From a virus, in IMG/VR virus record IMGVR_UViG_3300032307_000885, positions 1 to 43,103 of that record: a DNA stretch of 43,103 nucleotides; one strand, written 5' to 3'. Below the pieces are notes generated by a model. That model was not told the origin of the DNA, made no database searches, and saw only the letters and a list, made by a program, of their open reading frames with translations. Position numbers and translations under genes: made by a program. Shown here in pieces: positions 25,870 to 42,501 of the stretch; position 1 is the first letter of the stretch; each line of letters opens with the position of its first letter.

Positions 25870-27372
25870 ATGTCGATCTTAAGGTCTTATATAAATAAAA
25901 ACAATACCATCATTTCAAACTCATATGTTAATACGGGAAGAAACCCTGTAATTGAGTTAAATTTTGGTGCTTCGGATTTAATTGTCCCAAACTTTGGTTA
26001 CACAAGATTTATCTTCGATTTAGATTTATCTTTATTAGAAGAAAACATTGCATCAGGCGTCATATCTACAGGATGTACTTCCGCAATGACACACACCCTG
26101 AAAATGACCAACACATCTTCATTTGACAATGAATTATTAAATTCATTTATGTCCAATGAAAGACGAAGAGCAACTTCATTTGATTTAATATTATGGAGAA
26201 TTCCTAAGTTTTCAGGAACCACAGGCCAGCCTCAATATTGGGATGAAGGTGTTGGTTATGACTATAGTGACTTCAACATTGCACAAAATAGTGCGAATGG
26301 TGGAATTTCCCCTTTAACGTACGTTGACAGTCGAGCATATTCCACACGACCATCTAACTGGTATCAAACGACAACTCTCTCTGGATGGTCTCAAAATGGT
26401 ATCTACAACAATAAGAATGAAGGGTCTGTAAACTATTCAGGTTTGACGATTGTTGCTCGACAACATTTCGAGCTCGGAAACGAAGACTTGAACATGGATA
26501 TGACCGCCGAGATTAATGGAATCTTAAATGGGTCAATTACTGGAGTCACAGGTTGGGGTATTTCATACCTCCCTCAAATAGAAAATATCACAGGTCTTAC
26601 AGAAAGTTATAGTGTGGCGTTTTTCTCAAGACACACACAAACATTCTACCAACCTTATCTTTTAACAAATTACAATGATTTTGTAGAAGATGATAGAAAC
26701 CTATTTCTCAAGAATCAAGAAAACAAGTTATTCTTGTATGTCTATCAAAATGGAGATTTCGCAAATCTTGATTCTGACCCATTCGTTAGAATTGAAGATA
26801 GAAATGGTACTGCAGTAACTGGAATGGCATCATTGACGACCTGTCTTAAAACAAAAGGAATATACGAGGTTACAGTACCTAATGGGTTTGCCAACTATCC
26901 AACACCATGTATTTTTTATGATGTATGGTCAGGACTTACAATTAACGGTCAATCCGTTCCAAATGTAACAAATCAATTCACATTACAACCATATACATCA
27001 GGAATCCAAATTGGTTCAGTTTCTAAAGACCCTGAAATATACGGATTTGATTTCTATGGTATTCTACAAAATGAAAAAATACTTAATACAGATATTCGTA
27101 AAGTTGGGGTTACAATTAAGAAAGCCTATACAGGCCAACAACTTTTATTAGACGTTTCAGGGTTCTACAGAGTTTATGTTACAGAAGGTACAACAGAGGT
27201 ACTAGTACAAGATTGGACACCACTAAATCGTACTCCAAATGAATATTATTTCATATTTGATATGAGAGACAAAATACCAAATCAATATTTTGTTGATATT
27301 CAAGTGAACACATCAGGAGAAAAAGATACTTATAAGAGACAATTAACATTTTCAATCGTAAATACAAAATGA
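25870..27372 (+). CDS. Probable tail/baseplate structural protein (500 aa)
   Basis: A 500-residue protein dominated by beta-strand patterns with many Asn, Thr, Ser, Tyr and Gly residues and few charges, as in tail or fibre components. The N-terminus (ILRSYINKNNTIISNSYVNTGRNPV) is typical of an attachment domain. The last 110 residues (VGVTIKKAYTGQQ, then FYRVYVTEGTTEVLVQDW, ending RQLTFSIVNTK) resemble an immunoglobulin-like sandwich. No signal peptide. It overlaps the next gene by 4 bases (ATGA). The exact part of the virion is unknown. Confidence 0.6.
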   Translation: MSILRSYINKNNTIISNSYVNTGRNPVIELNFGASDLIVPNFGYTRFIFDLDLSLLEENIASGVISTGCTSAMTHTLKMTNTSSFDNELLNSFMSNERRRATSFDLILWRIPKFSGTTGQPQYWDEGVGYDYSDFNIAQNSANGGISPLTYVDSRAYSTRPSNWYQTTTLSGWSQNGIYNNKNEGSVNYSGLTIVARQHFELGNEDLNMDMTAEINGILNGSITGVTGWGISYLPQIENITGLTESYSVAFFSRHTQTFYQPYLLTNYNDFVEDDRNLFLKNQENKLFLYVYQNGDFANLDSDPFVRIEDRNGTAVTGMASLTTCLKTKGIYEVTVPNGFANYPTPCIFYDVWSGLTINGQSVPNVTNQFTLQPYTSGIQIGSVSKDPEIYGFDFYGILQNEKILNTDIRKVGVTIKKAYTGQQLLLDVSGFYRVYVTEGTTEVLVQDWTPLNRTPNEYYFIFDMRDKIPNQYFVDIQVNTSGEKDTYKRQLTFSIVNTK

Positions 27373-27839
27373 GTAAAGTAGTTAAATTAACAGAAAACGA
27401 TTTGACCCATTTGGTCAACAGAGTACTTAAAGAACAAGACGAAGAACAAGCAAACTACATGTTTTTCAGTAATTTGAAACAAATTGCAAGACAATGTAAA
27501 ATGTTACTAGAAATGGATGCTGAAATGATTGACCAAATTTTACTTGATGGTCATGATTGGGCTGATGACCACGTGACTGAAGCTAAGGTGAATATGGACC
27601 AAGTTTTCGATTTCATAATGAATGAAAAAAGAAAAATGGAACAATATGTTGACTATGAAGATATGAATGAAGGTCGAAAGAAAACAGGGACTAAACTTTG
27701 CGCTAGAGGGAAGTCAGCGGCTAAATCAAAATTCAAGGTCTACCCTAGTGCTTATGCGAACGGGTACGCGGTTCAAGTATGTAAGGGTAAAATGCCAGGC
27801 TTAGATGGGAAGAAACATTGCTCGGGAGCATATTGTTAA
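27369..27839 (+). CDS. Cys-module protein with candidate prohead-targeting N-terminus
   Basis: A 156-residue protein in two parts. The N-terminus (KVVKLTENDLTHLVNRVLKEQ, residues 4-23 in two pieces) is an amphipathic helix ending L-K-E/Q, like the cleavable tags discussed in the findings. The C-terminus carries a compact basic module: KLCARGKSAAKSKFKVY and PSAYANGYAVQVCKG, with four Cys (111, 138, 151, 156) that could bind zinc or form disulfides. The module resembles DUF5872-type domains of phages and large DNA viruses. It is the last gene before a strong terminator. Confidence 0.6.
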   Translation: MSKVVKLTENDLTHLVNRVLKEQDEEQANYMFFSNLKQIARQCKMLLEMDAEMIDQILLDGHDWADDHVTEAKVNMDQVFDFIMNEKRKMEQYVDYEDMNEGRKKTGTKLCARGKSAAKSKFKVYPSAYANGYAVQVCKGKMPGLDGKKHCSGAYC

Positions 27840-27848
27840 AAAATAAAC

Positions 27849-27876
27849 AGGGAATCTTAAGGTTCCCTTTTTTTTT
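27849..27876 (+). terminator. Rho-independent terminator of the tail block
   Basis: An 8-pair stem (AGGGAATC with GGTTCCCT, one T-G pair) encloses a TTAA loop and runs into a tract of nine T (27868-27876). It starts 9 bases after the stop codon at 27839 and closes the long plus-strand run. Confidence 0.85.
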
Positions 27877-27899
27877 GTCAATCAATTTTCATACTTTTG
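27875..27899 (+). promoter_or_regulatory. Candidate promoter for gene at 27926
   Basis: TTGTCA (27875-27880) overlaps the end of the terminator T-tract, and TACTTTTG (27892-27899) is an exact TAnnTTTG box. The gap between TTG and the box is 14 bases, shorter than the typical Bacteroidota spacing. The same layout is seen at 2007 and 35741. Confidence 0.45.
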
Positions 27900-27925
27900 T
27901 ATAGTTATTATATCCCACAAAAGAC

Positions 27926-28321
27926 ATGAAAAAATTCTTCAAAAAACTTTGGATTAAGATTTTTCTTAAAGTACTCAATAGAGTAACCCCTACAATCGAA
28001 TTTGACGATAATGAAAAAACTTCAGCGTCTATCTGTCGTAAACTTATTAATCACCAAGATTCCAAGTTTTTGATTGCGCCATTATCTCAAAAAAGATATA
28101 TTAAAAATGAGACTCTTCAGATGTTTGTAGTACTACAAGACGATAGAATCAATATCACGAATCATATCTATAATTATGACATCACAGTACCGTCTCAAAT
28201 GACTCAGAAATTGAATCGTATGTTCGACAACAAGGTGGAAGAAGCTCGATTAAAATTTGAAAAAGAAATGCATAGTCAGGTAAGACATTCTCTAAAAAAA
28301 ATCTTGGAAAAACTTATCTAA
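27926..28321 (+). CDS. Hypothetical protein (131 aa)
   Basis: A 131-residue protein with a strongly basic N-terminus (MKKFFKKLWIKIFLKVL) that could sit on a membrane surface or bind nucleic acid, but is too charged for a clear signal peptide. The middle looks like mixed beta structure (FVVLQDDRINITNHIYNYDI) and the C-terminus is a long charged helix (about 95-131). It has its own promoter candidate and overlaps the convergent gene on the minus strand by 8 bases. No family recognised. Confidence 0.55.
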   Translation: MKKFFKKLWIKIFLKVLNRVTPTIEFDDNEKTSASICRKLINHQDSKFLIAPLSQKRYIKNETLQMFVVLQDDRINITNHIYNYDITVPSQMTQKLNRMFDNKVEEARLKFEKEMHSQVRHSLKKILEKLI

Positions 28322-29009
28322 AATTTTCTTGTAATACTTTTGAGATTAAATCCCTTAATGTTTCATTTTGGGATTTTTTTGGTTTATAACTTGTCATAGT
28401 TGGAGAATTTCCTGTACCTGTCTTTGGGTTTGCCTTTTCAGCTTTCCTTTTTTGTGAACACGCTGATTTTTTCTGAGAGTCTGTCATTTTGGATGCTACA
28501 CCCGCGGCTCTACATTTTGGATATCCTTTACTATCCGCTTCAGGTCTGCCACATGGAGGATGTCCTCCTCCTTCCTTTTTTCTACAAATGTTAACCCATG
28601 GACCTTTAGGTTGTTTGGACCCTTTTGGTTTTTTCTTTGTACCGAACCAAACTGCTAAGTCTTCTTTTACCAACTTTTCTTTCAACGGTTCTCCACTCAT
28701 AGTTGGATTTATTGCTGACCCATCCTCATCATTTTGGCCCATATAAGATTTTTTCTTTTGCATATTAATTTTACTCATTAATTTGGTTCGGTTTTCAATT
28801 TTTTCCCTGTCTTCAGGTGATTCAGTAAAATCTCCATCCGCCTCTTGATAGGCAAGTTGTGCATTCGTATATTTGTAAACTGGCTCTGTGAAAGGACCAA
28901 CTTGGTTATCTTTCCAAATTTGTGGTCCAAGTACAAGTGGGCCTGAATAAGATCCAGTTAAACCAGCTCCACTTACCTCTTTAATTATTTTTCTTATAAC
29001 ATCTTTCAC
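28314..29009 (-). CDS. DUF5872-like Cys protein with candidate prohead-targeting ends
   Basis: A 231-residue protein starting at a GTG (29007-29009). The N-terminus MKDVIRKIIKEVSGAG contains an I-x-E/V site at residues 9-12. The C-terminus repeats the style (LRDLISKVLQEN, 218-229). Residues about 111-190 are the likely functional module: EDLAVWFGTKKKPKGSK, WVNICRKK, PPCGRPEAD, GYPKCRAAG and SACSQKRKAE, with Cys142, Cys153, Cys166 and Cys184. This matches my memory of DUF5872-type domains in phages and large DNA viruses; a zinc-bound basic domain that binds DNA is a reasonable guess. Confidence 0.65.
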   Translation of the reverse strand: MKDVIRKIIKEVSGAGLTGSYSGPLVLGPQIWKDNQVGPFTEPVYKYTNAQLAYQEADGDFTESPEDREKIENRTKLMSKINMQKKKSYMGQNDEDGSAINPTMSGEPLKEKLVKEDLAVWFGTKKKPKGSKQPKGPWVNICRKKEGGGHPPCGRPEADSKGYPKCRAAGVASKMTDSQKKSACSQKRKAEKANPKTGTGNSPTMTSYKPKKSQNETLRDLISKVLQENFR

Positions 29010-29012
29010 AAT

Positions 29013-29020
29013 AATAAATA
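29013..29020 (-). promoter_or_regulatory. TATTTATT motif before minus-strand gene
   Basis: TATTTATT on the minus strand, 3 bases upstream of the GTG at 29009, in the 29-base divergent gap between 29009 and 29039. It is one of the variant copies of the late motif. Confidence 0.25.
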
Positions 29021-29038
29021 TACACTTTAATCAAAATT

Positions 29039-29266
29039 ATGGAACAAAAACAACCTATTGGATTACTTTTTGGAAGTGTTGGGTATTACAGTCCTGATGA
29101 CATTAATTCTATCTGTGACGATATGAATTTAGAACAAGCATATTTTATGATAATAAAATCTTTGGAATATTCTCACAATTCTAATATCTTTACACTTCAA
29201 GAATCGGAGTTAGTTTCAAAGTCACTTAGATTATTAAACAATCATTTCACAACTGAAAAACCATGA
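29039..29266 (+). CDS. Hypothetical small protein (75 aa)
   Basis: A 75-residue soluble protein with an acidic middle (DDINSICDDMNLEQAYFMII) and helical C-terminus. No signal peptide. It is transcribed divergently from the Cys-module gene, 29 bases away, and overlaps the next start by 4 bases (ATGA), so the two genes form a small plus-strand unit. No function recognised. Confidence 0.55.
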   Translation: MEQKQPIGLLFGSVGYYSPDDINSICDDMNLEQAYFMIIKSLEYSHNSNIFTLQESELVSKSLRLLNNHFTTEKP

Positions 29267-29679
29267 AAAAATTCTTGATTTTATTTTGTCTACAATTTTT
29301 ATTTTTTATCAACTCATATTCACAAGTTAGAGGAATTCCTTTGAATGTTATTAGTTTAGGAAATGACGTTGAATTGTTCGAATCAAAATTAACTCCGTCA
29401 GCAAAAAAAATGTATGACGAAGTTATTTCAAAATATCTTGGAGATATTCAATCTTATGAAATTGAAGTCCCCGATTCATTTTATGACTTTACAGTTGGAC
29501 TAAAACCAAGGAAGTATTTATACGTGTCAAAAGAGAAACGCAAAGATTCACCCGAAAAAACAGAGATTTACGAAAAGATGGATACATCTGAAACAAAATA
29601 CAAAAAAATCACCCTCTTCTATTTCACAAATGAAAATGAAAAATATGAATGTTTAGAATTTTTCTTATTTCCTCATTGA
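29263..29679 (+). CDS. Secreted hypothetical protein (138 aa)
   Basis: Residues 1-21 form a classic type I signal peptide: MKKF, the hydrophobic core LILFCLQFLFFI, then NSYSQ. The likely cut is just before Gln21, a site style often seen in Bacteroidota. The mature part (about 117 residues) is charged, with a central beta-like region and a C-terminus of FFLFPH. It would act in the periplasm or at the outer membrane of the host, for example in lysis or exclusion of other phages, but no domain is recognised. It overlaps the convergent OmpA-like gene by 15 bases. Confidence 0.65.
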   Translation: MKKFLILFCLQFLFFINSYSQVRGIPLNVISLGNDVELFESKLTPSAKKMYDEVISKYLGDIQSYEIEVPDSFYDFTVGLKPRKYLYVSKEKRKDSPEKTEIYEKMDTSETKYKKITLFYFTNENEKYECLEFFLFPH

Positions 29680-30666
29680 AATTTCAGGTAATTTGATTAT
29701 TAGTCTTCTGTTTGGTGCAGTCTTACTGCTGTCTTTTACTTCAGGCCACTTCAAATCAGGTGCAAACTTATCAGTTTGCCCTATCGGATTTGGTATAAAC
29801 TTCAATGTCGTATTACCAGTTTCTCTTTTCAATCTGTCAATAATTGCTTGTGCTCTACGTTTGGACAATTCCATGTTATATTGTTCTTTTGTAGCAGGAT
29901 CACTATCAATTGATGCCGAGGTTGTCACTGTAACATCTCCACTTACATTACTATAGAACTTTTTAATGTTTTCAATGAATTCTTTGAAACTTGTTTCAGC
30001 CTCAGGTGTCAAATCTGTTTTGTCAAACTCAAACGGACTTTCAATGTCAAAGGTTTTAGTAATGTTTTCTGGTTCAATAATTTCCGGTTCTGGTTCTCTT
30101 CCAGGAGTACCTTTTTCAATATCTCTTAATTGAATAATAAAATTATCTGTATAATTTTTCATAAATGTGACAACATTTCCCTCTCTTTCTTTTATTTCCA
30201 CTTGATCTGGAAATATCATACTACCACCATAAAAAGAACCATAAAAAGTTATTGCCGCATAGACAGGAACATTTTCTCCTGTATCAAAGTAACAAAATGG
30301 AATTGGAGTTGTAACCTGTTCGATAGGGCCAATCGGATTATATCTTGCCATCCTTCGTCCTACGTCAATACCATTTTGAGTAAGTTCTGTAGGTACAATT
30401 TTGAATTTACCGCTTGGGCTTGGATTGTTCTTTTTTTGAATTACTCCGCTAATTTCTAAGTCAGTAGGAATTTGGATTAAGTCCTCTGGAGTAACTCTTG
30501 CAAAATATTTATCACCTTGTTTTAGAATATAATTTACAAAGCCTAAGTTCCAAACTTCTACATTAGTTTGTTCCGACATCAAGTAAAGATTCTTTGTTGC
30601 AGATTCATGAAGAGATAAAATTCTATTTCTTTCGTCGTTTGATATTTCCCAAGTTTGCTTAATCAT
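29665..30666 (-). CDS. OmpA-like domain protein with tag-like N-terminus
   Basis: The frame opens at 30732, but the first 22 codons run through a terminator, so the ATG at 30666 is chosen (333 residues). There is no signal peptide. Residues 1-22 read as a short helix ending RILSLHE/SA (cut candidate after Glu21). Residues 206-328 form an OmpA/MotB-type peptidoglycan-binding domain: FDIESPFEFDKTDLTPEA, VTVTTSASID, YNMELSKRRAQAI (263-275, Arg271) and APNRRLIIKL (317-326). A middle domain (40-185) looks beta-rich. Such a protein without export signal is probably carried in the virion or released on lysis. Confidence 0.75.
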   Translation of the reverse strand: MIKQTWEISNDERNRILSLHESATKNLYLMSEQTNVEVWNLGFVNYILKQGDKYFARVTPEDLIQIPTDLEISGVIQKKNNPSPSGKFKIVPTELTQNGIDVGRRMARYNPIGPIEQVTTPIPFCYFDTGENVPVYAAITFYGSFYGGSMIFPDQVEIKEREGNVVTFMKNYTDNFIIQLRDIEKGTPGREPEPEIIEPENITKTFDIESPFEFDKTDLTPEAETSFKEFIENIKKFYSNVSGDVTVTTSASIDSDPATKEQYNMELSKRRAQAIIDRLKRETGNTTLKFIPNPIGQTDKFAPDLKWPEVKDSSKTAPNRRLIIKLPEISMRK

Positions 30667-30680
30667 AGTACACAATTTAT

Positions 30681-30688
30681 TATAAATA
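30681..30688 (-). promoter_or_regulatory. TATTTATA motif, candidate late promoter
   Basis: On the minus strand TATTTATA lies 14 bases upstream of the ATG at 30666 and just downstream of the capsid-gene terminator. A promoter is needed here for the OmpA-like gene, which makes this copy one of the more convincing ones. Confidence 0.45.
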
Positions 30689-30695
30689 TCAGGAT

Positions 30696-30727: not shown

Positions 30728-30745
30728 ACCATATCGAAATTTCGA

Positions 30746-32536
30746 TTATCTCAATTCTCTCAAGTCGAATGTTCTAACTCCATCAACTGTGATTCTACCG
30801 TAGAATCTGTTATTAACCATTTTCTTAGCGTATCTAGTCATGATACCTTTGATTGGTGTAAAGTTGAATGGATTGTACATTGTAGGAGTTAATTGTAGAG
30901 GTACATACGGTGCGTAGATGTAACCAGTGTCCAATAGAGAAGTTCCTTTGTGACCCATCAATACTTGGTTTGGTGGGAAGTAAGGGTCTCTATACACTTG
31001 ATAACGACCTGCTAATGTACCAACTCTTTCAATACCCATGTTGTACTGATCCTGCTCAGGAGCTGCGTTTGATACGTGGAAGTATTCCAAGTCATCAAAG
31101 ATAGCACTGATTTCAGAAGAAACAACGATCCAGTTAGCTCCACCTCTTAATGTAGATTTGTGGATTTGTGCTGAAATTTGGTTGATTGCGGTGATAAGAG
31201 TTTGGTTCCAATCTTTCTGAGTATAAGGAACTGCGTTAGATCCTAATCTCTTCCATCCATTGTAATCCCATCTTAAGTTCCAAGCTGCTCCTTTTCTAAG
31301 GTCTCTCAAGATTTCTCTATCGATTTCAGCTGCAACTTGCTCAGATAACAATGCAGTTAATTCAGCTTCAGCGTCGATGTTGTGGAATGCCGCAACGTCC
31401 TGAGCCATTTCTGGAGACCACTGTGCTCTTAATTTTCTTTCAGTTACAGAAACTGTTACTGACATAAGGTCGAATGAAACTTCACCAATCTTATCTTCAA
31501 ATTCCAAGTTCTTATAGATTCTATAAGTAGCTGTGAATGCGTTGTCAGCCGCCGCAGTAGATGCGAATGTTGAACCTGTGTAACCATCTAATGAACCACC
31601 ACAAGTGATACATACTGGTACTTGAAGGTCAACTTCTAAGTAGATTTTACCTTCCGCATCACAAAGGTTGTCATACTGACCACCATCTGTCTTACTGTTA
31701 GGGAATACCAACGTAGCGTTGTTGTTACCATACTGAACGATACCTTTACCATATCTCTGAGTTACAACTCTGAACAAGTAAGGGTTAGAAGTGTTTGCAG
31801 AAGTGTAAGCGTTTCCAGCAACACCATATACGGTCAAATCAGATAAGAAAGCTTCGTTATCCATTGGTTGACCATCAGGACCGATTAACTTACCAGCTCC
31901 ATCAGACGCGAAACCTGACATAACTATCAATACCTTTCTGTAGTTATCCAAAGTGTAAGCAGAAGGTACCAAGTTGTCTGCTAACCATGCTACAGTTCCA
32001 ACCTGTGCAGTGATTGCAGAATATTGTCCTTTAGAATAATCGAACAATCCTGGAGGATCCAAAGCTGGTTCGTTACCTTCATAGAATCTGTCGTAAAGGT
32101 CCTTAGTGTTATTGTAGTCATAACCACTGTTTGGAGTTTGACCATTCGCAGCGTTTGGTGAACCATAAGGTGCGTAGTGCTCAGTAGTACCTGGTTGGTA
32201 AGACTGAATGTTAGGTACGAAGTAGAATAATTTACCGATAGGTAAGTTCATAGCTTGTACTGAAACGATATCGTTTGCTAATAATTTAGAGAAAACTCTT
32301 CTTACGATAGGGAAAACAACTGTTTCAAATGCACCTGTGTCAGATGTAGATGATGCTTCGTTAATTAAGTGAGAAGCTTGGTTTTCATAAAGTTGAGCTA
32401 CGTTCTCTCTCATGTGACCTTTAAGACCCTCAAGGAATCCTAACTTGTCCCATTTGTTGATTGTGTCTTCTTTGATAACTTTAAGGTGCTTAAGACCGAT
32501 GTTACCTACAAGACCTGATTCTAATAATGCTCCCAT
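30746..32536 (-). CDS. Major capsid protein (gp23-like)
   Basis: A 596-residue protein of the T4 gp23 type. Near the N-terminus QLYENQASHLINE/ASS (49-63) resembles the T4 prohead propeptide end, with a predicted gp21-type cut between Glu60 and Ala61 (T4: after Glu65). It then reads FPIVRRVFSKLLANDIVSVQAMNLPIGKLFY in pieces (74-105), the conserved start of the mature shell fold. The C-terminal part has VASEISAIFDDL-like and KGTSLLDTGYIYAPYVPL segments typical of the family. It follows the scaffold gene by 47 bases and ends at a strong terminator. At 596 residues it is longer than T4 gp23 (521), so an insertion domain is likely. Confidence 0.93.
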   Translation of the reverse strand: MGALLESGLVGNIGLKHLKVIKEDTINKWDKLGFLEGLKGHMRENVAQLYENQASHLINEASSTSDTGAFETVVFPIVRRVFSKLLANDIVSVQAMNLPIGKLFYFVPNIQSYQPGTTEHYAPYGSPNAANGQTPNSGYDYNNTKDLYDRFYEGNEPALDPPGLFDYSKGQYSAITAQVGTVAWLADNLVPSAYTLDNYRKVLIVMSGFASDGAGKLIGPDGQPMDNEAFLSDLTVYGVAGNAYTSANTSNPYLFRVVTQRYGKGIVQYGNNNATLVFPNSKTDGGQYDNLCDAEGKIYLEVDLQVPVCITCGGSLDGYTGSTFASTAAADNAFTATYRIYKNLEFEDKIGEVSFDLMSVTVSVTERKLRAQWSPEMAQDVAAFHNIDAEAELTALLSEQVAAEIDREILRDLRKGAAWNLRWDYNGWKRLGSNAVPYTQKDWNQTLITAINQISAQIHKSTLRGGANWIVVSSEISAIFDDLEYFHVSNAAPEQDQYNMGIERVGTLAGRYQVYRDPYFPPNQVLMGHKGTSLLDTGYIYAPYVPLQLTPTMYNPFNFTPIKGIMTRYAKKMVNNRFYGRITVDGVRTFDLRELR

Positions 32537-32583: not shown

Positions 32584-34155
32584 TTACCCAATTTTACTCA
32601 TCAAATCTTTCATTCTTAAGAATTGAGGATTCTCATAAGTTTTTGATTCAATTAGGGTAGTTGATGAACCTGTAGAAACACTCTTATTTAATTTAGTTTC
32701 TACTGACTCATTAATTGGTGTACTTTCAGTTTTAGACAATTCGTCTTTAATCGACTTATAAAGATTTTTAGATTCTTTCAAAGTATCTACATTATCAAAT
32801 CTTCTAAGAATATTAATTTTTTCTTTTTTAGTAGTCGAATGTTCAGTGAATAATCTTGTAGCGTATGCCAAGTTTGAATTGAAGATAGCAACTTCATTAA
32901 GTTTTTCTCTGAAAACATTTAATGCTTTTCTGTATTCTTCATTTTTCTCTCTTAACGTTGCAACTTCTGATTCTGAGGATTCAACTTTTACTCCGTTTTT
33001 ACCATAAACATAATTTCTGTTGTTAGTAATACCTTTTCTAAGTCCTCTTCCTTCTTTTGAACCCATTCCATAAGTTCTAGCAGCTTCTTTAGTTTCCTTT
33101 TTTTCAAAACCTGCGTCATCTCTACGAGCCTTAGTAGTTTTAAGATCTTTTGAAGCGATTTTACCATGCTTCATAGCCAATCTTTCATCCTCTTTGTCTT
33201 TGTATCCTTGACCTTCTTTTGTTTCTGCCTTAACAACCTTGGATTTTTGTTCCATATTTTCACCTTTCTTGTATTCGAATTTCGGTTTACCAGTACCAAC
33301 TGATTTTGGTCCTTCTTTCTTCTTCTCATCGAATCCGCCTTTAGCTTTATCTTTGTAAGTGAATTTAGGTCCAGACCCAATTCCAACACCTTTAGGTTTT
33401 ACTGTCGATTTTGCCTCTCTAACAGCTCTTCTATGGTTGTAAGATTCGTCCAAATCTTCTTCTTCCATCATGTCGTCATCTTCTTGCTCCATCATGTCTT
33501 CGTCTTCTTCCATCATGTCTTCGTCTTCTTCCATCATCTCGTCATCTCCTTCGTACATTTCTTCTTCTTCGTCGAATTCAATTTCGTACATAACTTCTTC
33601 TTGGTCCATGTCAAAATCTTCAACATCTCCGTCTTTTGAGAAAATAGCATTGATTACATCTTCTGTATCAACATCCATTTCATCGATTTCATCTACGTGC
33701 ATAGTTTCATCTAATTCTTCCTCTTCCTCGGACTCACCAAGCTTAACTAAATATTCTGAGTCAGTGTCAGTATCGCTTAAGTGAATATCTTCACCGTCTT
33801 TTTTAACGATGATACCATCTTCTTCACCCATAGCCTTGAACACCTTAAGAATTTCTTCGTCTGAAGCGTCAGTTAAATCTATTGGACTTTCTTCTGAATC
33901 CATATCCATGTCCATATCAAATTCCATGTCCATTTCCATATCATCATCATTATCAACAGGCATATCGGTATCGATATCTGTATCTAATTCAATCTCATCT
34001 TCCATATCTTGCTCTGACAGAGATTCTTTTACTAATTGGTTGATTTCTTCCTTCATAGTTGAAGCAAGTATTCCTTTTGCATTCTGGGCGATTGCTTCTT
34101 CAACATTTCTCATTTGAATTAACGCCTCTTGTACTAAGTTTTTATTTTCTTGCAT
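32584..34155 (-). CDS. Prohead core scaffold protein (gp22-like)
   Basis: A 523-residue protein in the gp22 position before the capsid gene. Residues 1-50 are helical with LVKESLSEQ. About 50-235 are extremely acidic and low-complexity (many Asp, Glu and Met, including repeated EEDEDMM). About 240-330 are basic with two KPKF-type repeats (GPKFTYKDKAKGG and GKPKFEYKKGE). The C-terminal 130 residues carry the conserved core signature FREKLNEVAIFNSNLAYATRLF and KINILRRFDNVDTLKES. It is about twice as long as T4 gp22 (269), the extra being the charged regions. It would form the prohead core and be degraded by the prohead protease. Confidence 0.85.
   Translation of the reverse strand: MQENKNLVQEALIQMRNVEEAIAQNAKGILASTMKEEINQLVKESLSEQDMEDEIELDTDIDTDMPVDNDDDMEMDMEFDMDMDMDSEESPIDLTDASDEEILKVFKAMGEEDGIIVKKDGEDIHLSDTDTDSEYLVKLGESEEEEELDETMHVDEIDEMDVDTEDVINAIFSKDGDVEDFDMDQEEVMYEIEFDEEEEMYEGDDEMMEEDEDMMEEDEDMMEQEDDDMMEEEDLDESYNHRRAVREAKSTVKPKGVGIGSGPKFTYKDKAKGGFDEKKKEGPKSVGTGKPKFEYKKGENMEQKSKVVKAETKEGQGYKDKEDERLAMKHGKIASKDLKTTKARRDDAGFEKKETKEAARTYGMGSKEGRGLRKGITNNRNYVYGKNGVKVESSESEVATLREKNEEYRKALNVFREKLNEVAIFNSNLAYATRLFTEHSTTKKEKINILRRFDNVDTLKESKNLYKSIKDELSKTESTPINESVETKLNKSVSTGSSTTLIESKTYENPQFLRMKDLMSKIG
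33462..33540 (-). repeat. 21-24 base tandem repeats in scaffold gene
   Basis: On the plus strand CCATCATG-type units recur at 33465, 33489, 33510 and 33531, with spacings of 24, 21 and 21 bases. They encode the EEDEDMM-like acidic heptads of the scaffold protein. The spacing is in multiples of three, so unit number can vary without a frameshift. Confidence 0.7.
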
Positions 34156-34179: not shown

Positions 34180-34187
34180 TATAAATA
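34180..34187 (-). promoter_or_regulatory. TATTTATA motif upstream of scaffold gene
   Basis: On the minus strand TATTTATA lies 24 bases before the ATG at 34155, downstream of the terminator at 34231-34255. A new transcript for scaffold and capsid must start in this gap, so this is a strong candidate late promoter. Confidence 0.5.
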
Positions 34188-34492: not shown

Positions 34493-35209
34493 TTATTTTC
34501 CTAAAAAATCGTCTAATTTTCTCATTAAGTCAACCGACTTTCCAACATAGTCGTTATTTTGTTTAGATTTTATTTCTTCTTCTAAGTTTTCTTCGTACTT
34601 ACTTCTATCGTCGGGATTAGAAAATAAATATGCTCCTGGTGTTGATGGAGAAGATACCAAGTCAAAACATATCAGTTCAAAATCATCTTGTACTTCATTT
34701 CTTTCTCCAACTTTTTTTAATGAACCAACACCTCTTGATGAAATACCTAAGGTTACTCCTTGTCTCATTAAGTTTGCCGCTTGGTCTCCTTTAGTTGAAA
34801 CAATGCCTCTTTCATGAAACCCTGGAGATGTCAATAATTTGAGTTTTCCCATTAGTATATTTTTATCCCACCATATGTCTGTGATGATGTGAGATACTCT
34901 GTCTAAGTCAATTAATGACGACTCAGGGTGGTTTAATTCTGATGTGGATAAACCCTTAGAAATTGCTTGTTTATATCTTTCAGATTCTCTTTTCAAAATC
35001 CTTTCAGGATACGTTCTACCATTTCTATTAGGTGTGTCATATTTTTGAAGAACTGCATAAAACTCAAATGGATTTCTATAATCTAAATTGGCGGCTTCTT
35101 TTAGAACATCAATATTATGAGTGTCTTTGGGAGAAACCCAACCTGCATCCATTTCAATCAATATACCATGGCCAAGTTCGCTCGCTTCTAAAATTCTTAA
35201 ATTTTTCAT
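34493..35209 (-). CDS. Prohead protease (gp21-like)
   Basis: A 238-residue serine protease of the T4 prohead type (family S80). Seen: NRNGRTYPERIL (61-72), ELNHP with the putative catalytic His94, GISSRGVGS (155-163) with the nucleophile candidates Ser157/Ser158, and LVSSPSTPGA (184-193). It would cut scaffold, capsid protein and tagged internal proteins after (Leu/Ile)-x-Glu. Its gene lies between two hypothetical genes and the DUF4494-like gene, in T4-like order relative to portal, scaffold and capsid. A TATTTATC motif lies 12 bases upstream. Confidence 0.9.
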   Translation of the reverse strand: MKNLRILEASELGHGILIEMDAGWVSPKDTHNIDVLKEAANLDYRNPFEFYAVLQKYDTPNRNGRTYPERILKRESERYKQAISKGLSTSELNHPESSLIDLDRVSHIITDIWWDKNILMGKLKLLTSPGFHERGIVSTKGDQAANLMRQGVTLGISSRGVGSLKKVGERNEVQDDFELICFDLVSSPSTPGAYLFSNPDDRSKYEENLEEEIKSKQNNDYVGKSVDLMRKLDDFLGK

Positions 35210-35221: not shown

Positions 35222-35229
35222 GATAAATA
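35222..35229 (-). promoter_or_regulatory. TATTTATC motif upstream of protease gene
   Basis: On the minus strand the octamer TATTTATC, one base off the TATTTATA copies elsewhere, lies 12 bases before the ATG at 35209, in the short gap after the gene ending at 35249. Confidence 0.35.
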
Positions 35230-35763: not shown

Positions 35764-35779
35764 TGGATATTTCTAATAT

Positions 35780-35971
35780 ATGATAATAATAAAAATAAAT
35801 CAGGGTAATCCCCTTGAGAAGGCTCTCAAGACCCTAAAGTCAAAAGTAATCAAAACAAAACAAAATCAAATTTTATTTGATAGGAAACAATATACAAAAA
35901 AATCTGTACTTAGAAGAGCACAGATTTTGAAGGCAAAACATATTCAAAGTCTTAAAGACAAATCAAATTGA
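35780..35971 (+). CDS. rpsU: Ribosomal protein bS21 homologue
   Basis: A 63-residue basic protein matching bS21 along its whole length: MIIIKINQGNPLEKALKTLK lines up with the family start (II.V..GE..E.ALKR.K), RKQYTKKSVLRRAQILKAKH with the family end. Phage-encoded bS21 is known in diverse viruses and can be taken into host ribosomes at the 30S platform near the anti-Shine-Dalgarno. The gene has its own promoter candidate and no Shine-Dalgarno. It stands alone on the plus strand in the middle of the minus-strand head operon and overlaps the convergent gene by 9 bases. Confidence 0.85.
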   Translation: MIIIKINQGNPLEKALKTLKSKVIKTKQNQILFDRKQYTKKSVLRRAQILKAKHIQSLKDKSN

Positions 35972-36661
35972 TTCTTCCAAATTTTTTAATTTCAAAAAGT
36001 TTAATTGGTCGAATTTTTCAGATTTAATTTTGTCAATCGTTTCTGAAATTTTTGTTTTCATATCCTGTGAGTCTTCATTATTTTGAAGATTAGTTAGTTT
36101 GGATATTGTACTTTCTCTTAATGTTTCGAATTTTGTCTCCAAAGTTTTGGTATCTTCAGAAACTATTTGGAAAAATTCTTTTTTAGAATTTTCATCCAAA
36201 GTAAGTATGTAGTTATTAACTGTTTGGTTTGCCACCGCAACCATAGAACTAATTGGGATATTTATACTTTCCTTAATAGATTCTTTCGTTGATGTAATAA
36301 CCTTTATAATACTTTTCTTCGCATTAACTCTTTCAAGTAAATCTACTCCTTGTGTATAAACTAAGGTATCAATATCGGAATATTTGTTTTCAGTTTTTTC
36401 GGAAAGTGTGATTGGAAGTTTAATACTTGACAAAACTTTGTTTAATAGACTAATCCCTTCTTCAATAAAATATTTTGCATCCTGTTCACTTAACCCTTGG
36501 GGTGAACTCAGTTGGTCATATATTGCGTATGCTTTAGACATAGCTTTATTACTCAAAACGTTGTGTTTGAATTCTCGCAAAGTCTTCTTGAATTCTACTT
36601 CATTTTTGTAGGATTCTAAGAGATTTTTTTCAATTAGGGATTTTACTATTCCGAAGGTCAT
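35963..36661 (-). CDS. Hypothetical protein in gp67/gp68 position (232 aa)
   Basis: A 232-residue, almost entirely helical protein. The start (MTFGIVKSLIEKNLLESY, then FKKTLREFKHNVLSNKAMSK) is well-defined and includes an L-L-E/S site at residues 14-17. The rest is charged and helical, with coiled-coil character in 140-225. It lies right after the portal gene, where T4 encodes its small prohead core proteins. From position and helicity I propose a prohead core role, with low certainty. A TATTTATT motif lies 13 bases upstream. Confidence 0.6.
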   Translation of the reverse strand: MTFGIVKSLIEKNLLESYKNEVEFKKTLREFKHNVLSNKAMSKAYAIYDQLSSPQGLSEQDAKYFIEEGISLLNKVLSSIKLPITLSEKTENKYSDIDTLVYTQGVDLLERVNAKKSIIKVITSTKESIKESINIPISSMVAVANQTVNNYILTLDENSKKEFFQIVSEDTKTLETKFETLRESTISKLTNLQNNEDSQDMKTKISETIDKIKSEKFDQLNFLKLKNLEESI

Positions 36662-36674
36662 GGTGTCTTTTTCA

Positions 36675-36682: not shown

Positions 36683-38527
36683 TTATGAATTTAATAACTT
36701 ATCTAACTCTTTTGAAATTTCTCCCAAAGAATCTTGTGCCTGACCCAAATTTATTATCTGTGAACCTTCGATTAAATTGTTTTCCACTAAAATATTGAGG
36801 TCTTTTTTCCTTGATTCCGGTGTTACTTCAGCTGGTGGAGCTTCTTCAGCGCCACCTGCCGGTGGTAATTCAGGTTCAGGAATCTCTCCTCCTCCACCGA
36901 ATGATGGTGGTGGTCCCAATTCTTCTCCACCATCCGTAGTTGTCGCGGCACCAGCCGTCGGAGTTGCGCCTGTTTGACTACCATACAATTTGTCGATATT
37001 ATCAAACAAACCTGTTTTGGTTATCACAGTTGGAGTTGCTTTAAGTTCTTCACCAACCGCTCTTTCAATTCTTTGTTGTTGTAAGTCTAAACGAACTTCG
37101 TCATCAGACCATCCAAATATGTGTTTCTTAGCCCATGTAGATGAAGTTGCCTGTATTCCATTTCCTGGATCTGCAACCAAATCTTTATACAACAATACTT
37201 TTTCTTTCCAAACATCAATCTTCAACAAATCCGCTTGAGTTGATGGGTTTGTTAATCCAAGTGTAAAGTTTGATAATTCATCTTCAAACCCCAATAAAAA
37301 TAAATGTACAATGGCAATCTTATTCAGTTCCGCCAACATACTTTTTTGGATTCTATTAATTGTACGAGCAAATCTAATGTCTTGTAACGCCAAGTTTTTA
37401 CCATCACCTACCACTTCTTCAAAACCCAAGAACGCTTTTGGTACTCGTAATGCAGTTAATAACTTCTTTTGAATATATTCAATATCGGCAATTTCAGACA
37501 AGTTAGTTGCTCCAGGTAATGTAGTAATTGGATCTGGTGCTGCCGGATCACGAACAGGAATAAAGAAATCTTGGTCAACAGCCATTTGATTGAATCTCAT
37601 GTCTACGTTTCCTGTCTTACTATCTACAACTTGTTCTCTTTTGAATTTGTTTGCAACACGCTGTACATACGCTTCTACATCATCATCATTCATGTTACCG
37701 ACAAAGACCTTAAATAACTTTCTTTCGGGTGCTCTTGATGTTCGATAAATCAACATAGCGTCTTCACAAAGTAATAATTGTTTCCAAATACGTCTAGCCT
37801 TTTCTAACATAGACGTTCCATAAGGAAGTTTTCTATCATCGCCTAATAATCTGAAGTGAGCAATTTCCCATGATTGGAATTCCATATTCTTATTCTTCCA
37901 AGTAAAGTGTAATGCTTTCTTGTCTTTATCAACTTCATTTTTTACATCGACAGATATTTTACCACTTGCTCCAACTTCATGTCTTTCGATTTCTATAGTT
38001 GGTAATTGTTGACATCCAACAATACCTTTCTCAGGATCTAATTTAAGATACACGAAATTGTCACCATATTTACAGGTATTCCGTGTCCACATTGGAAGGT
38101 TGGTATTAACATCTAAAGCATTGTTAAACAAATCCGCTAATACCCCTTTTATTCTTTTTGATTCAGAATAAATTTGTAGAATAAATCCATCTTCATTTGT
38201 TGTGGTGGATTCTTCGGCATAAATGTCTAACGCCGCAGAAATCTCAGGAGTATATTCCATCGACTCATAATCGTATTGAGCAGATAACCTTGTTGGTTCA
38301 TAGTAAATCGCCTGAGAATAAAGATTGTTTTCTACCTTAGCCCATTGATTGGTAAGGTAATATGTTTGTTGTGCTTGGAGTTTTTCTTTTTCGTATTCTT
38401 CTCTACTTTTGGTTCGCAGAAGTTCCTTTTTATCAAACTTGAATGTCGGATAGTCTTGATTGAGAAGTGAATTAGGTCCAAATGTTTGTGACAATCTTTG
38501 CCAAACTGTCATATTTTGTTCTGCCAT
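36683..38527 (-). CDS. Portal vertex protein (gp20-like)
   Basis: A 614-residue portal of the T4 type. The N-terminal half has YESMEYTPEISAALDIYAEESTT (about 85-107, in pieces), the gp20 signature, and NTCKYGDNFVYLKLD (about 145-159). Further on, IYRTSRAPERKLFKVFVGNM (about 260-279), FNQMAVDQDFFIPVRD, and KAFLGFEEVVGDGKNLA follow in family order, then LQDIRFARTINRIQKSML. The C-terminal 110 residues are Pro, Gly and Glu-rich (GGGEIPEPELPPAGG), an unusual low-complexity tail before a final helix. It forms the dodecameric ring for packaging and neck attachment. Confidence 0.92.
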   Translation of the reverse strand: MAEQNMTVWQRLSQTFGPNSLLNQDYPTFKFDKKELLRTKSREEYEKEKLQAQQTYYLTNQWAKVENNLYSQAIYYEPTRLSAQYDYESMEYTPEISAALDIYAEESTTTNEDGFILQIYSESKRIKGVLADLFNNALDVNTNLPMWTRNTCKYGDNFVYLKLDPEKGIVGCQQLPTIEIERHEVGASGKISVDVKNEVDKDKKALHFTWKNKNMEFQSWEIAHFRLLGDDRKLPYGTSMLEKARRIWKQLLLCEDAMLIYRTSRAPERKLFKVFVGNMNDDDVEAYVQRVANKFKREQVVDSKTGNVDMRFNQMAVDQDFFIPVRDPAAPDPITTLPGATNLSEIADIEYIQKKLLTALRVPKAFLGFEEVVGDGKNLALQDIRFARTINRIQKSMLAELNKIAIVHLFLLGFEDELSNFTLGLTNPSTQADLLKIDVWKEKVLLYKDLVADPGNGIQATSSTWAKKHIFGWSDDEVRLDLQQQRIERAVGEELKATPTVITKTGLFDNIDKLYGSQTGATPTAGAATTTDGGEELGPPPSFGGGGEIPEPELPPAGGAEEAPPAEVTPESRKKDLNILVENNLIEGSQIINLGQAQDSLGEISKELDKLLNS

Positions 38528-38554
38528 ACGTAATGTTACTATTTACCCTGATAA

Positions 38555-38562
38555 TATAAATA
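38555..38562 (-). promoter_or_regulatory. TATTTATA motif upstream of portal gene
   Basis: On the minus strand TATTTATA lies in the 36-base gap after the terminase gene, 27 bases before the portal ATG at 38527. With the scaffold copy it is the best placed for a late promoter. Confidence 0.5.
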
Positions 38563-38563
38563 G

Positions 38564-40324
38564 TTATTTAGCGCCAAATAACCAACCATATTTTTGATAA
38601 TCTGCTTTACTGGCGCCATTATTATTTAGGCTTGGGTCTCTATTCATTTGAGGTACCATTGGATTAAAAAATTCTGAAGAATTTTTATTCTCATTCACAA
38701 CTGATGCCCATGAATTCAACATTGCCTTAGTATGATTAACAACTTTTGCTAATGATTGAAATGATTTTTCCGCAATATAAATTGCCATCGATAATCCCAT
38801 AATACAGTCATCATGTTGACCCTTTTGGTGATCTGGTCTTCCATTTATATAGACGAAGGTATTCATCTCGTTGTATGTTCTATGAGAATATATTTTGAAT
38901 CCATGTCTAACACCTTCTTCAAATGCGGCAATAATCTGAACTCGTTTTGTATTAAAATTGATTCCAGGGATTTTGTCATTAATTTTCGGATCCCATTTCC
39001 ACTTATTAGATGTATCAACCCCATCAACATAAAGGCCTGGTTGGTATTGTAATTCTTGCATTTTTCTTGCGGTAGATACTCCCATACCACCAGTGATATC
39101 AATTACACAAAATGCGTTATACATCGTTCCCCACTTGTAAGCAATTTCCGCCAACACATCAGGAGGAACTTTCCCAACATATTCTAAAACTTGTTCCCTT
39201 TCATCAAAATCTATAATTTGTATGGATGAAAAATCTTCTGAATCCCCACGAGAAACGTCAACACCCATTACATACTTGTGGCCATTTACAGGTTCCTTGA
39301 AAATCCATAAGGCATTACCCATAAGTTTTGCTTGAGGGTCTCTTAACTGATTTTTTGCAATATTCTGCATTAAATCCGAATCAAATACGTTATCTCCTGA
39401 ACCCAAGAAATTACATTCCAATTCTTGGGCAACTTTACGTCTATCGTATTTAAGTTTTTTTACCATCCCCTCAAACCATGATGAACAAGGTTTGTATCCC
39501 TTGTCAATATAATCTGTAACTATACCGTGGTCTCTTTCATATGGATTATCAGTTGCCAAATCAATAACCGTATCTATTGGATAATCTTCTCTATTTAGTA
39601 GATAGTGTACTAAATCACTTGTTTTAACCACATACAAATCTTTAGTATATCTCGGGTCTCTGTACCAAAACATTTCAGAGATTTTGAAGTCGTTCATACC
39701 TCTTAATGCTTGGTCGTAGATTTCATAATAAATTGGGTCGTATCCATTTGGTGTTGAAACCACAATAACTTTACCACCCGTTGATAGTGAAGCCATACAA
39801 GCTGACCAGAAATCTCCGTCAGCCTCGATAAAGGCAGCTTCGTCAAAAATAAGAATAGTAGGAGTATAACCTCTCAACGCATCTTTCGAAGTTGCAACGG
39901 CTTTGACTTCACATCCATTATTAAGTTTGAAATGTCTTTGAGAATTTTTTTCGGCGGAAAACCCAATACCAACCCATGCTGGCCATTGTTCAATAAAACC
40001 TCTAATTTTATTTGCCATTTCAACAGAAGTATCCAACTTGTTGGCAATGATTAGAATTTTCTCAGGTTTTTCTTTTCTCGCGAAGGCTAATTTTTTTGAA
40101 GACCAAGCTGCAGTTACGGTTGATACACCTGCTTGTCTATACTTGAGGGCGATATTTTCGTTATATTTTTCGTAATCTTCAAGTAGTGAAACTTGGTCAG
40201 GAAAAAGTTCTAATGGGACATATTTTGATACCGTATTATCGTATGTCTGTAAATAAGTACGAAGTGCATAAGGGGTATTCCTCATACACTTCGTATATTC
40301 TATTATTAATTGTTCTTTGTTCAC
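38564..40324 (-). CDS. Terminase large subunit (gp17-like)
   Basis: A 586-residue packaging motor beginning at GTG (40322-40324). ATPase domain: YRQAGVST (62-69) as the Walker A variant of terminases, RGYTPTILIFDEAAF (151-165) with the Walker B Asp161/Glu162, and VSTPNG (189-194) as motif III. Nuclease domain: YVMGVDVSRGDSEDF (351-365, Asp356), AFCVIDITGG (404-413, Asp409) and HDDCIMGLSMA (504-514, Asp505 or Asp506). This is the full RNase H-fold triad. It follows the 424-residue unknown gene by 21 bases and precedes portal, as in T4-like phages. Confidence 0.94.
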   Translation of the reverse strand: MNKEQLIIEYTKCMRNTPYALRTYLQTYDNTVSKYVPLELFPDQVSLLEDYEKYNENIALKYRQAGVSTVTAAWSSKKLAFARKEKPEKILIIANKLDTSVEMANKIRGFIEQWPAWVGIGFSAEKNSQRHFKLNNGCEVKAVATSKDALRGYTPTILIFDEAAFIEADGDFWSACMASLSTGGKVIVVSTPNGYDPIYYEIYDQALRGMNDFKISEMFWYRDPRYTKDLYVVKTSDLVHYLLNREDYPIDTVIDLATDNPYERDHGIVTDYIDKGYKPCSSWFEGMVKKLKYDRRKVAQELECNFLGSGDNVFDSDLMQNIAKNQLRDPQAKLMGNALWIFKEPVNGHKYVMGVDVSRGDSEDFSSIQIIDFDEREQVLEYVGKVPPDVLAEIAYKWGTMYNAFCVIDITGGMGVSTARKMQELQYQPGLYVDGVDTSNKWKWDPKINDKIPGINFNTKRVQIIAAFEEGVRHGFKIYSHRTYNEMNTFVYINGRPDHQKGQHDDCIMGLSMAIYIAEKSFQSLAKVVNHTKAMLNSWASVVNENKNSSEFFNPMVPQMNRDPSLNNNGASKADYQKYGWLFGAK

Positions 40325-40345
40325 ACAGTTAAATCATATTCTGAT

Positions 40346-41620
40346 TTATGGTCTTGGAATTCCCAAATCTCTATAAAGTTGGTCCAAATCATCATCTTCA
40401 TCTTCGATACCTTCTTCTCCTTTGAAATCATCATACTCACTCTTTGACTGTTGAGCTTGTTTCATAATTTCTTTGAATTTTGCAGTTGCCTTTCTTACTT
40501 TTGATTCATCTTCAGAAATTGCATTACCAATTATATCTAAAAATTCTTTAGCTTCTGTCTTGTAAAGAATTGAGTAAAACCAAGGTACTAATCCTTTGTT
40601 CACATCGTCAAACATTTCGTCAGGTAATGCAAACCTTAATTTTTCAACAATTTCAGGACCAATTCTAAGTTGCATCGGTTCATTCGATAACACGTCTGTG
40701 TAAGATCTCACTTGTTGAGACATAACAGGATCTTCAGGTAATCCGTGTCTTGCAATAGATTCCTCTAATCCTTTAATTATTTCATGACACAAAATTGGGA
40801 ATATCAACCCTTCCGCAACAATTTTTGTATCAGGTTCATCTTCACCTTCTCCACCCTCGTCTTCGTCTTCATCTTTATTTTCTAACTTAACTTTTCCGGC
40901 GACGCCATTTCCTGTTTGAGACATCATTTCAATCATTTGTTCCATTGAAAAATACATGAAATCATTGATTGACATAATTTTCAAATAAGCGGGATATAAT
41001 TGTGGGTCAATTTCATCTAACCTTTCTTTAATTTCAGGTTTTTGAAAAATATAATGTCCCTTTTTTGCCGCTCCTTGAACAAGAGCGTTAATCATATTTC
41101 TTTTATGAATTTCCAATTCCATTACTTCTTCATCAGTTAAATCTTCAACATCAAAAGAAGGAATTTCAGGGGATTCTTCATCTTCCTTTTTCTTTGGTTT
41201 AGTTGCTTGCATTCTGAAGTCCGAAATATTAATAGGGGATCTATTCAATAATGCCTCAATTGTAAACCAATCAGCAGGAACTTGAGTTTCTTCTAAACAT
41301 GCATCAATTGCAAGTTGTTCTAATTCTTCTCTATGTCTTCCTTCAATTCTTGTTATTCCAGGAACTTTACTCATCATTTCTTGAAAAAGCATTCCTTGAA
41401 CTTGTTGGGAACTAAGGTCCTGTACTCCAGTCACTTGTTTCAACTTATCGGCAACTTTCCCGAATCTTGAACTTACCAATCTTTGAACATCTGCAGCCCC
41501 CTTTCTCATTGCAGGATTAGTTGCGTACAAACTTTCAGGACTTCCCAATTTTCGTTCTAATCTTGGGTCCATTCTTTCGGGCCTATCCCCGTAATTTATT
41601 TGTTCTTTAATCTTCGCCAT
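40346..41620 (-). CDS. Hypothetical virion-associated protein (424 aa)
   Basis: A 424-residue acidic, mostly helical protein upstream of the terminase gene. It has a well-defined N-terminus (DRPERMDPRLERKLGSPESLY), a helical middle, an acidic low-complexity linker (about 247-262, DEDEDEGGEGEDEPD), and a second folded region. The C-terminus is acidic again (GIEDEDDDLDQLYRDLGIPRP). No enzymatic motif is visible. The position before terminase and the length suggest a head or neck component, but no family was recognised. Confidence 0.6.
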   Translation of the reverse strand: MAKIKEQINYGDRPERMDPRLERKLGSPESLYATNPAMRKGAADVQRLVSSRFGKVADKLKQVTGVQDLSSQQVQGMLFQEMMSKVPGITRIEGRHREELEQLAIDACLEETQVPADWFTIEALLNRSPINISDFRMQATKPKKKEDEESPEIPSFDVEDLTDEEVMELEIHKRNMINALVQGAAKKGHYIFQKPEIKERLDEIDPQLYPAYLKIMSINDFMYFSMEQMIEMMSQTGNGVAGKVKLENKDEDEDEGGEGEDEPDTKIVAEGLIFPILCHEIIKGLEESIARHGLPEDPVMSQQVRSYTDVLSNEPMQLRIGPEIVEKLRFALPDEMFDDVNKGLVPWFYSILYKTEAKEFLDIIGNAISEDESKVRKATAKFKEIMKQAQQSKSEYDDFKGEEGIEDEDDDLDQLYRDLGIPRP

Positions 41621-41625
41621 TTTAC

Positions 41626-42501
41626 TTATTTCAATAAATTTAAGATAACATCAATTACTTCTTGTTTAGCATCTTCAGGAGATATTCTTCCTGCTTTCGG
41701 GTCAATTTGTTCTCCTGGTCTCGGATTTTTTCCGGGATGTGCAGGTCTTGTTCTTGGTTTCGTGTCAGGTTTAGTAATTGGTTTAGTTGGTGCAGTAGTT
41801 GGTTCACCAGCCTTTGGGTCTATTTGCTCTCCTGGTCTTGGGTTTTTACCTGGATGTGAAGGTCTTGTTGTTGGTTTGGTGTCAGGTTTGGTTATAGGTT
41901 TTGTTGGAGCTTCGGTTGGAGCTTCAGACAAATATTTCAATAAGTCACCTTTTGTAATTCTAGGAGGTAAGTTTCTTTCCACAATTTTTGTAATTTCTGA
42001 TTCAATAAACAAAGATACAGGATTTTTTCCTTCTTCCAACTGTTTTTTCACAGATTTTACGCATCTTTCGAATTTTCTGGTTCTCTTTGGTCCAACTTGA
42101 GAATGACAAATAGCCCATGGGTTTGGTTTGTTTTTCTCTTCAGACATTCCCATCATTTTTCTATTGTCATCGGAATCATCATCCATTCCGTCAGGAGCCA
42201 TATCATTCGCGTCATGAGGAGCTTCTTGGCCAGTTAAATCTTGTAAGGCTGTCGCCCCCAAAGCATTTTGGTCAGTAACATCATCTGTTTCATCTTCATC
42301 GAGTTCTTTTTCGTATACTTGAAAAGGCTTTTTCTCACTCTTTAATTTAGTTATTGTTGCAGTATCTGTTTTAGATACGTTAATCTGTTCGTTAACTAAT
42401 TTTTTATGAAGAGTATTGATTTGGGATTCTGTTAATTTACCAACCGTTTTTGCGGATAACCCTTTATCAATTAATTCGAGTGCTTTTTTATTAACTTTCA
42501 T
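41626..42501 (-). CDS. Protein with W-x-x-C module and Pro/Lys tandem repeats
   Basis: A 291-residue protein. Residues 20-40 read GKLTESQINTLHKKLVNEQ, similar to the tag-like start at 27369. An acidic linker (65-115) follows. NPWAICHSQVG (127-137) plus RKFERCVKSVKK (142-153) form a small two-Cys module (Cys132, Cys147), and DLLKYLSEAPTEAP contains an L-S-E/A site (191-194). Residues 198-271 hold two 39-residue Pro/Lys-rich repeats (TKPITKPDTKP, RPGEQIDPKAG). The last 20 residues form a helix. It may be an elongated internal or surface virion protein; function is unknown. Confidence 0.6.
   Translation of the reverse strand: MKVNKKALELIDKGLSAKTVGKLTESQINTLHKKLVNEQINVSKTDTATITKLKSEKKPFQVYEKELDEDETDDVTDQNALGATALQDLTGQEAPHDANDMAPDGMDDDSDDNRKMMGMSEEKNKPNPWAICHSQVGPKRTRKFERCVKSVKKQLEEGKNPVSLFIESEITKIVERNLPPRITKGDLLKYLSEAPTEAPTKPITKPDTKPTTRPSHPGKNPRPGEQIDPKAGEPTTAPTKPITKPDTKPRTRPAHPGKNPRPGEQIDPKAGRISPEDAKQEVIDVILNLLK
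41692..41925 (-). repeat. Two 117-base tandem repeats encoding 39-residue units
   Basis: The GGGTC-containing block near 41698 recurs at 41815, a 117-base offset, and homologous bases run through about 41692-41808 and 41809-41925. The copies differ at several third-codon positions but the peptide differs at few residues, so selection has probably kept the protein repeat while the DNA drifted. Confidence 0.8.

Follow-up and report, generated by a model that had tools for sequence, protein, structure and literature searches.

Do phages of the T4 type mark unrelated proteins for the head with short N-terminal helices? The question is raised by the window, a 43 kb virus contig analysed in full (43,103 nucleotides), which carries T4-type head genes (portal, prohead protease and major capsid protein) and encodes 47 proteins with 1065 Glu sites. 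In addition, a long series of glycosyltransferase-like, epimerase-like and other sugar-related genes can be read from its + strand (2047-16996). The preliminary description had proposed that five of the proteins, like the capsid protein, begin with a leader that ends at a prohead-protease site. All the motifs that it quoted are present where it had placed them, namely VLKE22/Q (27369), IIKE11/V (28314), LHE21/SA (29665, start at 30666), LVNE38/Q (41626), LLE16/S (35963) and, in the capsid protein, HLINE60/ASS (genes are named by their lower coordinate and a slash marks the site). Nine relatives were analysed whole, namely G001 to G004 and another five contigs that are longer or rich in tags (G010, G015, G018, G021 and G025); the protease of G001 (170 kb) is identical to that of the window and its capsid protein is 99% identical. 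Genes were called by a greedy longest-ORF rule, with some start positions uncertain.

The site pattern by itself was discarded as evidence for tags, since its frequency in the window is no higher than chance. Defined as [LIAVM]xE/[QSAVGTN] with its end between residues 6 and 40, it occurs near the N-terminus of 19/47 window proteins; the mid-protein control has it in 16/47, and shuffled sequences give 12.2 ± 3.0. With so common a pattern, the claim required a test independent of the cut site.

Leaders shared by unrelated proteins

For each genome, pairs of proteins of at least 110 residues were counted that match over residues 1-40 (blastp E <= 0.01) and are dissimilar in the remainder. Such pairs number 63 in G025, 37 in G018, 33 in G015, 20 in G021 and 15 in G010; 8 were found in Flavobacterium phage immuto, 0-2 in G001-G004 and 1 in the window. 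The same test on other segments gave 0-2 pairs for the middle and 0-6 for the C-terminus. The controls T4, crAss001 and Cellulophaga phi14:2 gave 0-2 pairs at every position among proteins of at least 110 residues, the ten-residue leader of phage T4 being too short for this test. The resulting clusters are mostly tags, together with a few ordinary paralogues or signal peptides.

The main tag, class T1 (MKKVIKLTESDLTRLVKRVIKE/Q), was used as a model against 4104 distinct proteins, where it gave 165 matches, 161 of them beginning by residue 30 (21% expected by chance). With a Met-less model, from which the first columns had been removed, 156 of 160 matches begin by residue 40. T1 is carried by 98 distinct body clusters. 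An alignment of these, anchored at the terminal Glu, has a relative entropy of 1-4 bits at positions -21 to +1, 0.3 at +2 and about 0.1 or less from +3; the terminal Glu and the hydrophobic P3 were selected by the pattern, whereas the boundary and the P1' Gln, found in 48/98 body clusters, were not. Over the 14 residues that precede the T1 site, the hydrophobic moment averages 0.66, compared with 0.26 for the background; over the corresponding 14 residues no raised moment was seen for classes T2 and T6.

At least six classes exist beyond T1: T2 (MKYIITESQYNFLLE/Q), T3 (MNLNENISRIKEVMGLLxE/Q), tag class T4, not to be confused with phage T4 (MNLRETIRKVLRE/E), T5 (MNRSYSKIRHIQEANQRLEKRLLKE/Q), T6 (MKNLFNDISQDERNRILEMHKSATRKNYLSE/Q) and T9 (MKKQILSEQFRRMQKLAGIITE/S), with MKDLIKKILKE/E as an additional short form. 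Their leaders span about 11-35 residues, and different, unrelated classes end alike in (hydrophobic)-x-E. The core idea of the preliminary description, N-terminal tags with a gp21-type site on unrelated bodies, holds far more widely than the window shows; the tags are shared as it had supposed, but they form at least seven classes and not one.

Tag-only Pfam and PHROG scans gave no confident family. In an annotated phage collection the T1 peptide had no match, the T6 peptide had one weak match to an unannotated record, and the Flavobacterium tags matched essentially Flavobacterium phage immuto only. No relative of T1 was confirmed in 84,980 bacterial and archaeal genomes, and printed copies of these tags were not found in the literature searched. 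Phage immuto (NC_055915.1), an isolate whose host is Flavobacterium sp. LMO8, has tag classes of its own (FDLKKFLVENKLT, QFRRMQKLAGIITE and MKKSQLRQIIKE); its tagged genes lie at 1803, 25061, 60009 and 102294-118632, many of them at 102-119 kb, just upstream of head genes.

Tagged genes and head genes of the window

Table 1. Positions in the window of tags, head genes and upstream elements.
Feature	Position	Strand	Support
Class T1 tag, residues 1-22, MSKVVKLTENDLTHLVNRVLKE/Q, gene 27369-27839	27369..27434	+	T1 model iE 4.1e-14
Tag-like C-terminal helix, NETLRDLISKVLQENFR, gene 28314-29009	28317..28367	-	Conserved in homologues (NEQLQELIKKVLRENFR, NEGLTELIRKVLRESF)
Short N-terminal tag, residues 1-11, MKDVIRKIIKE/V, gene 28314-29009	28977..29009	-	Weak match, iE 0.015
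TATTTAT upstream of 28314	29014-29020		Sequence
Class T6 tag, residues 1-32, MIKQTWEISNDERNRILSLHESATKNLYLMSE/Q, gene 29665-30666	30571..30666	-	T6 model iE 2.5e-19
TATTTAT upstream of 29665	30682-30688		Sequence
Predicted propeptide, residues 1-60, ending HLINE/A, of gp23-type major capsid protein 30746-32536	32357..32536	-	PF07068 E 5.5e-72
T1-like helix and site, residues 34-48, KEEINQLVKESLSE/Q, in acidic scaffold-like protein 32584-34155	34012..34056	-	Third-best T1-like site
Further TATTTAT copies	34181-34187, 35223-35229, 38556-38562
gp21-type prohead protease (peptidase S77), proposed tag remover	34493..35209	-	PF03420 E 4.6e-22; PHROG head maturation protease E 1e-41
Gene 35963-36661, between protease and portal	35963..36661	-	Listed in the preliminary description; no tag model match
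gp20-type portal protein	36683..38527	-	PF07230 E 3.9e-74
N-terminal region with a T1-like tag (residues 22-38, KLTESQINTLHKKLVNE/Q) after a 21-residue extension, gene 41626-42501	42388..42501	-	T1 model iE 1.5e-4

The site LINE/A of the capsid protein aligns with FLTE/A of T4 gp23, which we take to be the gp21 cut; in the alignment that includes gp23, P1 is Glu in 44/44 sequences and P1' is Ala in 43/44. The tags have mostly Gln at P1', against Ala in the capsid protein. The window protease and T4 gp21 have an LNHP motif in common.

In the alignments of homologues the invariance of the P1 Glu was not imposed by the choice of pattern. The tag of 27369 is the best T1 site among all the Glu sites of the window, and its homologues keep P1 Glu in 22/22 and P1' Gln in 17/22; structure prediction for this family (mean pLDDT 57) was not usable. 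The second-best T1 site is that of 41626, where the model match spans residues 22-39 and the homologues have P1 Glu in 28/28 and P1' Gln in 21/28. The LTE(N/S) start correctly noticed in these two proteins is class T1. The body of 29665 contains an OmpA-like domain (PF00691, E 3.7e-8). It is tagged as had been proposed, but LHE21/SA falls inside the conserved T6 tag and the cut is better placed eleven residues downstream at the tag end, MSE32/Q; P1 Glu and the tag end SE/Q are each found in 6/6 homologues (LSE/Q in homologues). The weak match of 28314 is to the short MKDLIKKILKE class, by the tag class T4 model. Among its 28 homologues the leader is variable and the ending (I/L/V)-x-E/A or V is kept (P3 I/L/V 28/28, P1 Glu 28/28, P1' Ala 22/28), an ending that resembles that of phage T4 internal proteins.

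The fifth protein, 35963, does not belong among the tagged examples. The P1 Glu of its LLE/S is present in 57/61 homologues, which adjoin head genes in relatives, and it is likely a prohead-core gene rather than tagged cargo. Of the other four, 27369 and 29665 are strong examples, 41626 and 28314 good ones.

The gene of the acidic scaffold-like protein lies between those of the protease and the capsid protein. Its helix ranks third of the 1065 Glu sites, with 0.19% of background Glu sites reaching its score, and its site (ending SLSE/Q) has P1 Glu in 71/72 and P1' Gln in 70/72 homologues. Against a T1 model without the scaffold seed the protein was not significant (iE 0.5); an earlier tag model, seeded with the scaffold and hence circular for it, was set aside.

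The S77 protease is present in all nine T1-carrying contigs of at least 130 kb, several of which are closely related, and in 17/30 T1-carrying contigs overall, the others being shorter and possibly fragmentary; the association of protease and tag is based on few independent phages. In the five tag-rich genomes the tagged genes are mostly distant from the head cluster. The enrichment near head genes that had been anticipated was not found: in G025, tags occur on 2/34 genes that lie no more than 15 kb from the capsid gene, compared with 31/401 in the genome as a whole.

Tag swapping, further copies and the upstream element

Two or more tag classes occur on 13 body clusters, a few of which may be loose under single-linkage clustering. 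The clearest swap is in the 27369 family, which has T1 in most genomes and, in G010, a tag class T4 leader that joins the body at the same junction. Despite this change of class, the P1 Glu is retained in 11/11 aligned members.

Tags are also found away from the N-terminus. Three T3-like proteins, like the members of the 28314 family, terminate in a tag-like helix, and 6/8 of the matches to T3 and tag class T4 that are not N-terminal have their end no more than 12 residues from the C-terminus, against 0.5 expected; helices at the extreme C-terminus were seen in the window and in L045, G003, G018, G025 and L196. In G004 (63731-64852) a full T1 tag follows the 28314 body, at the point of the C-terminal helix, and leads into a second domain. 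L080 (17167-17982) has the order T1-body-(NESDLNRIVKKVLTE/Q)-second body, the second body being of the 27369 family. These two fused genes, with T1 between two bodies, resemble a small polyprotein. C-terminal helices count against removal in the manner of T4, which makes no sense at that end. Together, the internal and C-terminal copies point to the helix as the address, with cutting independent of it, and the address may function from either end of a protein.

K-mer counts upstream of genes in G001-G025 brought out an element, TATTTAT. Located 10-50 nt upstream, and with the comparison confined to confirmed structural and replication genes, it precedes 28/34 structural, 85/151 tagged, 1/24 replication and 346/1689 other genes. 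Where at least 30 nt are free upstream, these counts become 25/30, 59/68, 0/10 and 237/687, respectively. Other 7-mers of equal composition precede at most 13% of tagged genes, and inside genes TATTTAT is nearly absent (22/2322). Fisher p-values (down to 1e-20) are overstated because the genomes are related; the contrast itself is large. In the window the element precedes 28314, 29665, 35963 and the scaffold, protease and portal genes, while 27369 and 41626, which both appear to be intra-operon, are without it. The T4 late promoter TATAAATA has a core whose reverse complement is TATTTAT. The distance from TATTTAT to the start codon has two peaks, at 12-14 and 21-25 nt. A second motif, TATCTTTG, is also enriched upstream of genes and resembles the host promoter of Bacteroidota. 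TATTTAT may be a late promoter, and its sharing implies that tagged proteins would be made alongside head proteins, in time for assembly.

Proposed role, cargo and known systems

The tags are probably capsid-targeting sequences like that of T4, which here have grown into a set of address helices that can replace one another. A tagged protein would be produced late in infection and docked by its N-terminal helix to the scaffold core within the growing prohead. Cleavage by the prohead protease after the Glu of the (L/I/V/M)-x-E site would then release the body, which would remain in the head until ejected together with the DNA. In favour of this reading are the shared leaders with their sharp end at the site, the class swaps, the upstream element common to tagged and structural genes, the capsid-protein site that aligns with that of T4, the T1-like helix of the scaffold-like protein and the S77 protease of the large contigs. 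Against it are the distance of tagged genes from the head genes, the non-significant scaffold match, the C-terminal helices, the envelope-enzyme-like bodies, the difference between Gln and Ala at P1' and the few independent phages behind the protease association. The tags might instead be uncleaved docking helices for assembly of the head, neck or tail, the conserved Glu being part of the helix fold. The late-type upstream element, the C-terminal and internal versions and the lysozyme, transglycosylase and peptidoglycan-binding bodies, which are like tail or ejection proteins, would suit this reading; it is nevertheless unlikely, given that conservation stops abruptly at P1', that unrelated classes all end in (hydrophobic)-x-E and that the P1 Glu persists through the class swap.

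A large genome has 25-32 tagged genes, and in the five tag-rich genomes their share is 7-16% of all genes. Pfam searches with 62 tagged proteins gave matches in a minority only, the domains being PPK2 with phage lysozyme, SLT, YkuD (L,D-transpeptidase), PG_binding, OmpA, GDSL and Ig-like. The polyphosphate kinase 2 and phage lysozyme domains form a T9-tagged fusion in G010 (86125-88074). Bodies without a Pfam match would fit fast-evolving anti-defence or injected proteins, and several envelope-enzyme-like bodies (lysozyme, SLT, L,D-transpeptidase, PG-binding and OmpA) could suit another destination. For instance, the OmpA, peptidoglycan-binding, L,D-transpeptidase and Ig-like domains would be in keeping with tags that direct proteins late in infection to the host envelope or another cell site, unconnected with the head. 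This is less probable still, as T1 is predicted to be an amphipathic basic helix and not a Sec signal, many tagged bodies have no envelope domain, and the site is of the prohead-protease type in tags that co-occur with the S77 protease. Recent duplication or shuffling of one fast-diverging family, with a functionless tag, would account for the clusters that are tandem paralogues and is highly improbable, since 22 N-terminal residues are conserved across 98 T1 body clusters without detectable body similarity and one body occurs with different tags.

If the capsid-targeting reading is extended, our judgement is evenly divided on whether a widespread, uncultured T4-like clade has a modular delivery system, in which at least seven interchangeable helices, N-terminal and perhaps internal or C-terminal, load 25-32 or more proteins per phage into the head for injection, with cargo predictable from sequence alone. 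Proteins injected with phage DNA are the first to act against host defences; for example, T4 IPI-III inhibit GmrSD-type restriction enzymes (PMC12373910). Were cargo readable from the tag, dozens of unassigned genes per phage would become candidate injected proteins, and it would be possible to measure how widely internal proteins occur among uncultured phages. The tags would also offer new packaging signals for protein loading into phage heads.

Judged from sequence, the system would work like the T4 capsid-targeting sequence, with putative packaging and cleavage. This sequence is removed by gp21 from the T4 internal proteins IPI-III and Alt (Mullaney and Black 1996, cited in PMC5694885, PMC9024508 and PMC9391042), and unrelated T4 internal proteins have only the leader in common (PMC12373910, PMC3012670). 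Likewise, a short N-terminal leader is shared here by unrelated bodies and ends in (L/I/V)-x-E/ or, more generally, (hydrophobic)-x-E/, in phages with T4-like head genes, including a gp23-type head, and an S77 protease. The T4 leaders read MKTYQEFIAE/A and MKTFKEF...TITE/A. By eye, the main tags are unlike MKTYQEFIAE, whose ten residues are too short for formal comparison, and homology of the leaders is therefore not claimed. The system differs from T4 in its seven or more leader classes, in the number of tagged genes per large genome, compared with a handful in T4, in the frequent Gln at P1' and in the internal or C-terminal copies.

In phage P1, the N-terminal 30 residues of DarB suffice to send a reporter into the capsid (PMC9024508), an N-terminal signal for capsid packaging such as is predicted here; Dar N-termini are without consensus (PMC9024508), whereas the present tags have an explicit consensus on many bodies. 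Head proteins of SPN3US and phiKZ have N-terminal propeptides that are cut off by the prohead protease in head maturation (PMC5694885). Many of these exceed 100 residues and are specific to one protein, in contrast to the short, shared tags described here.
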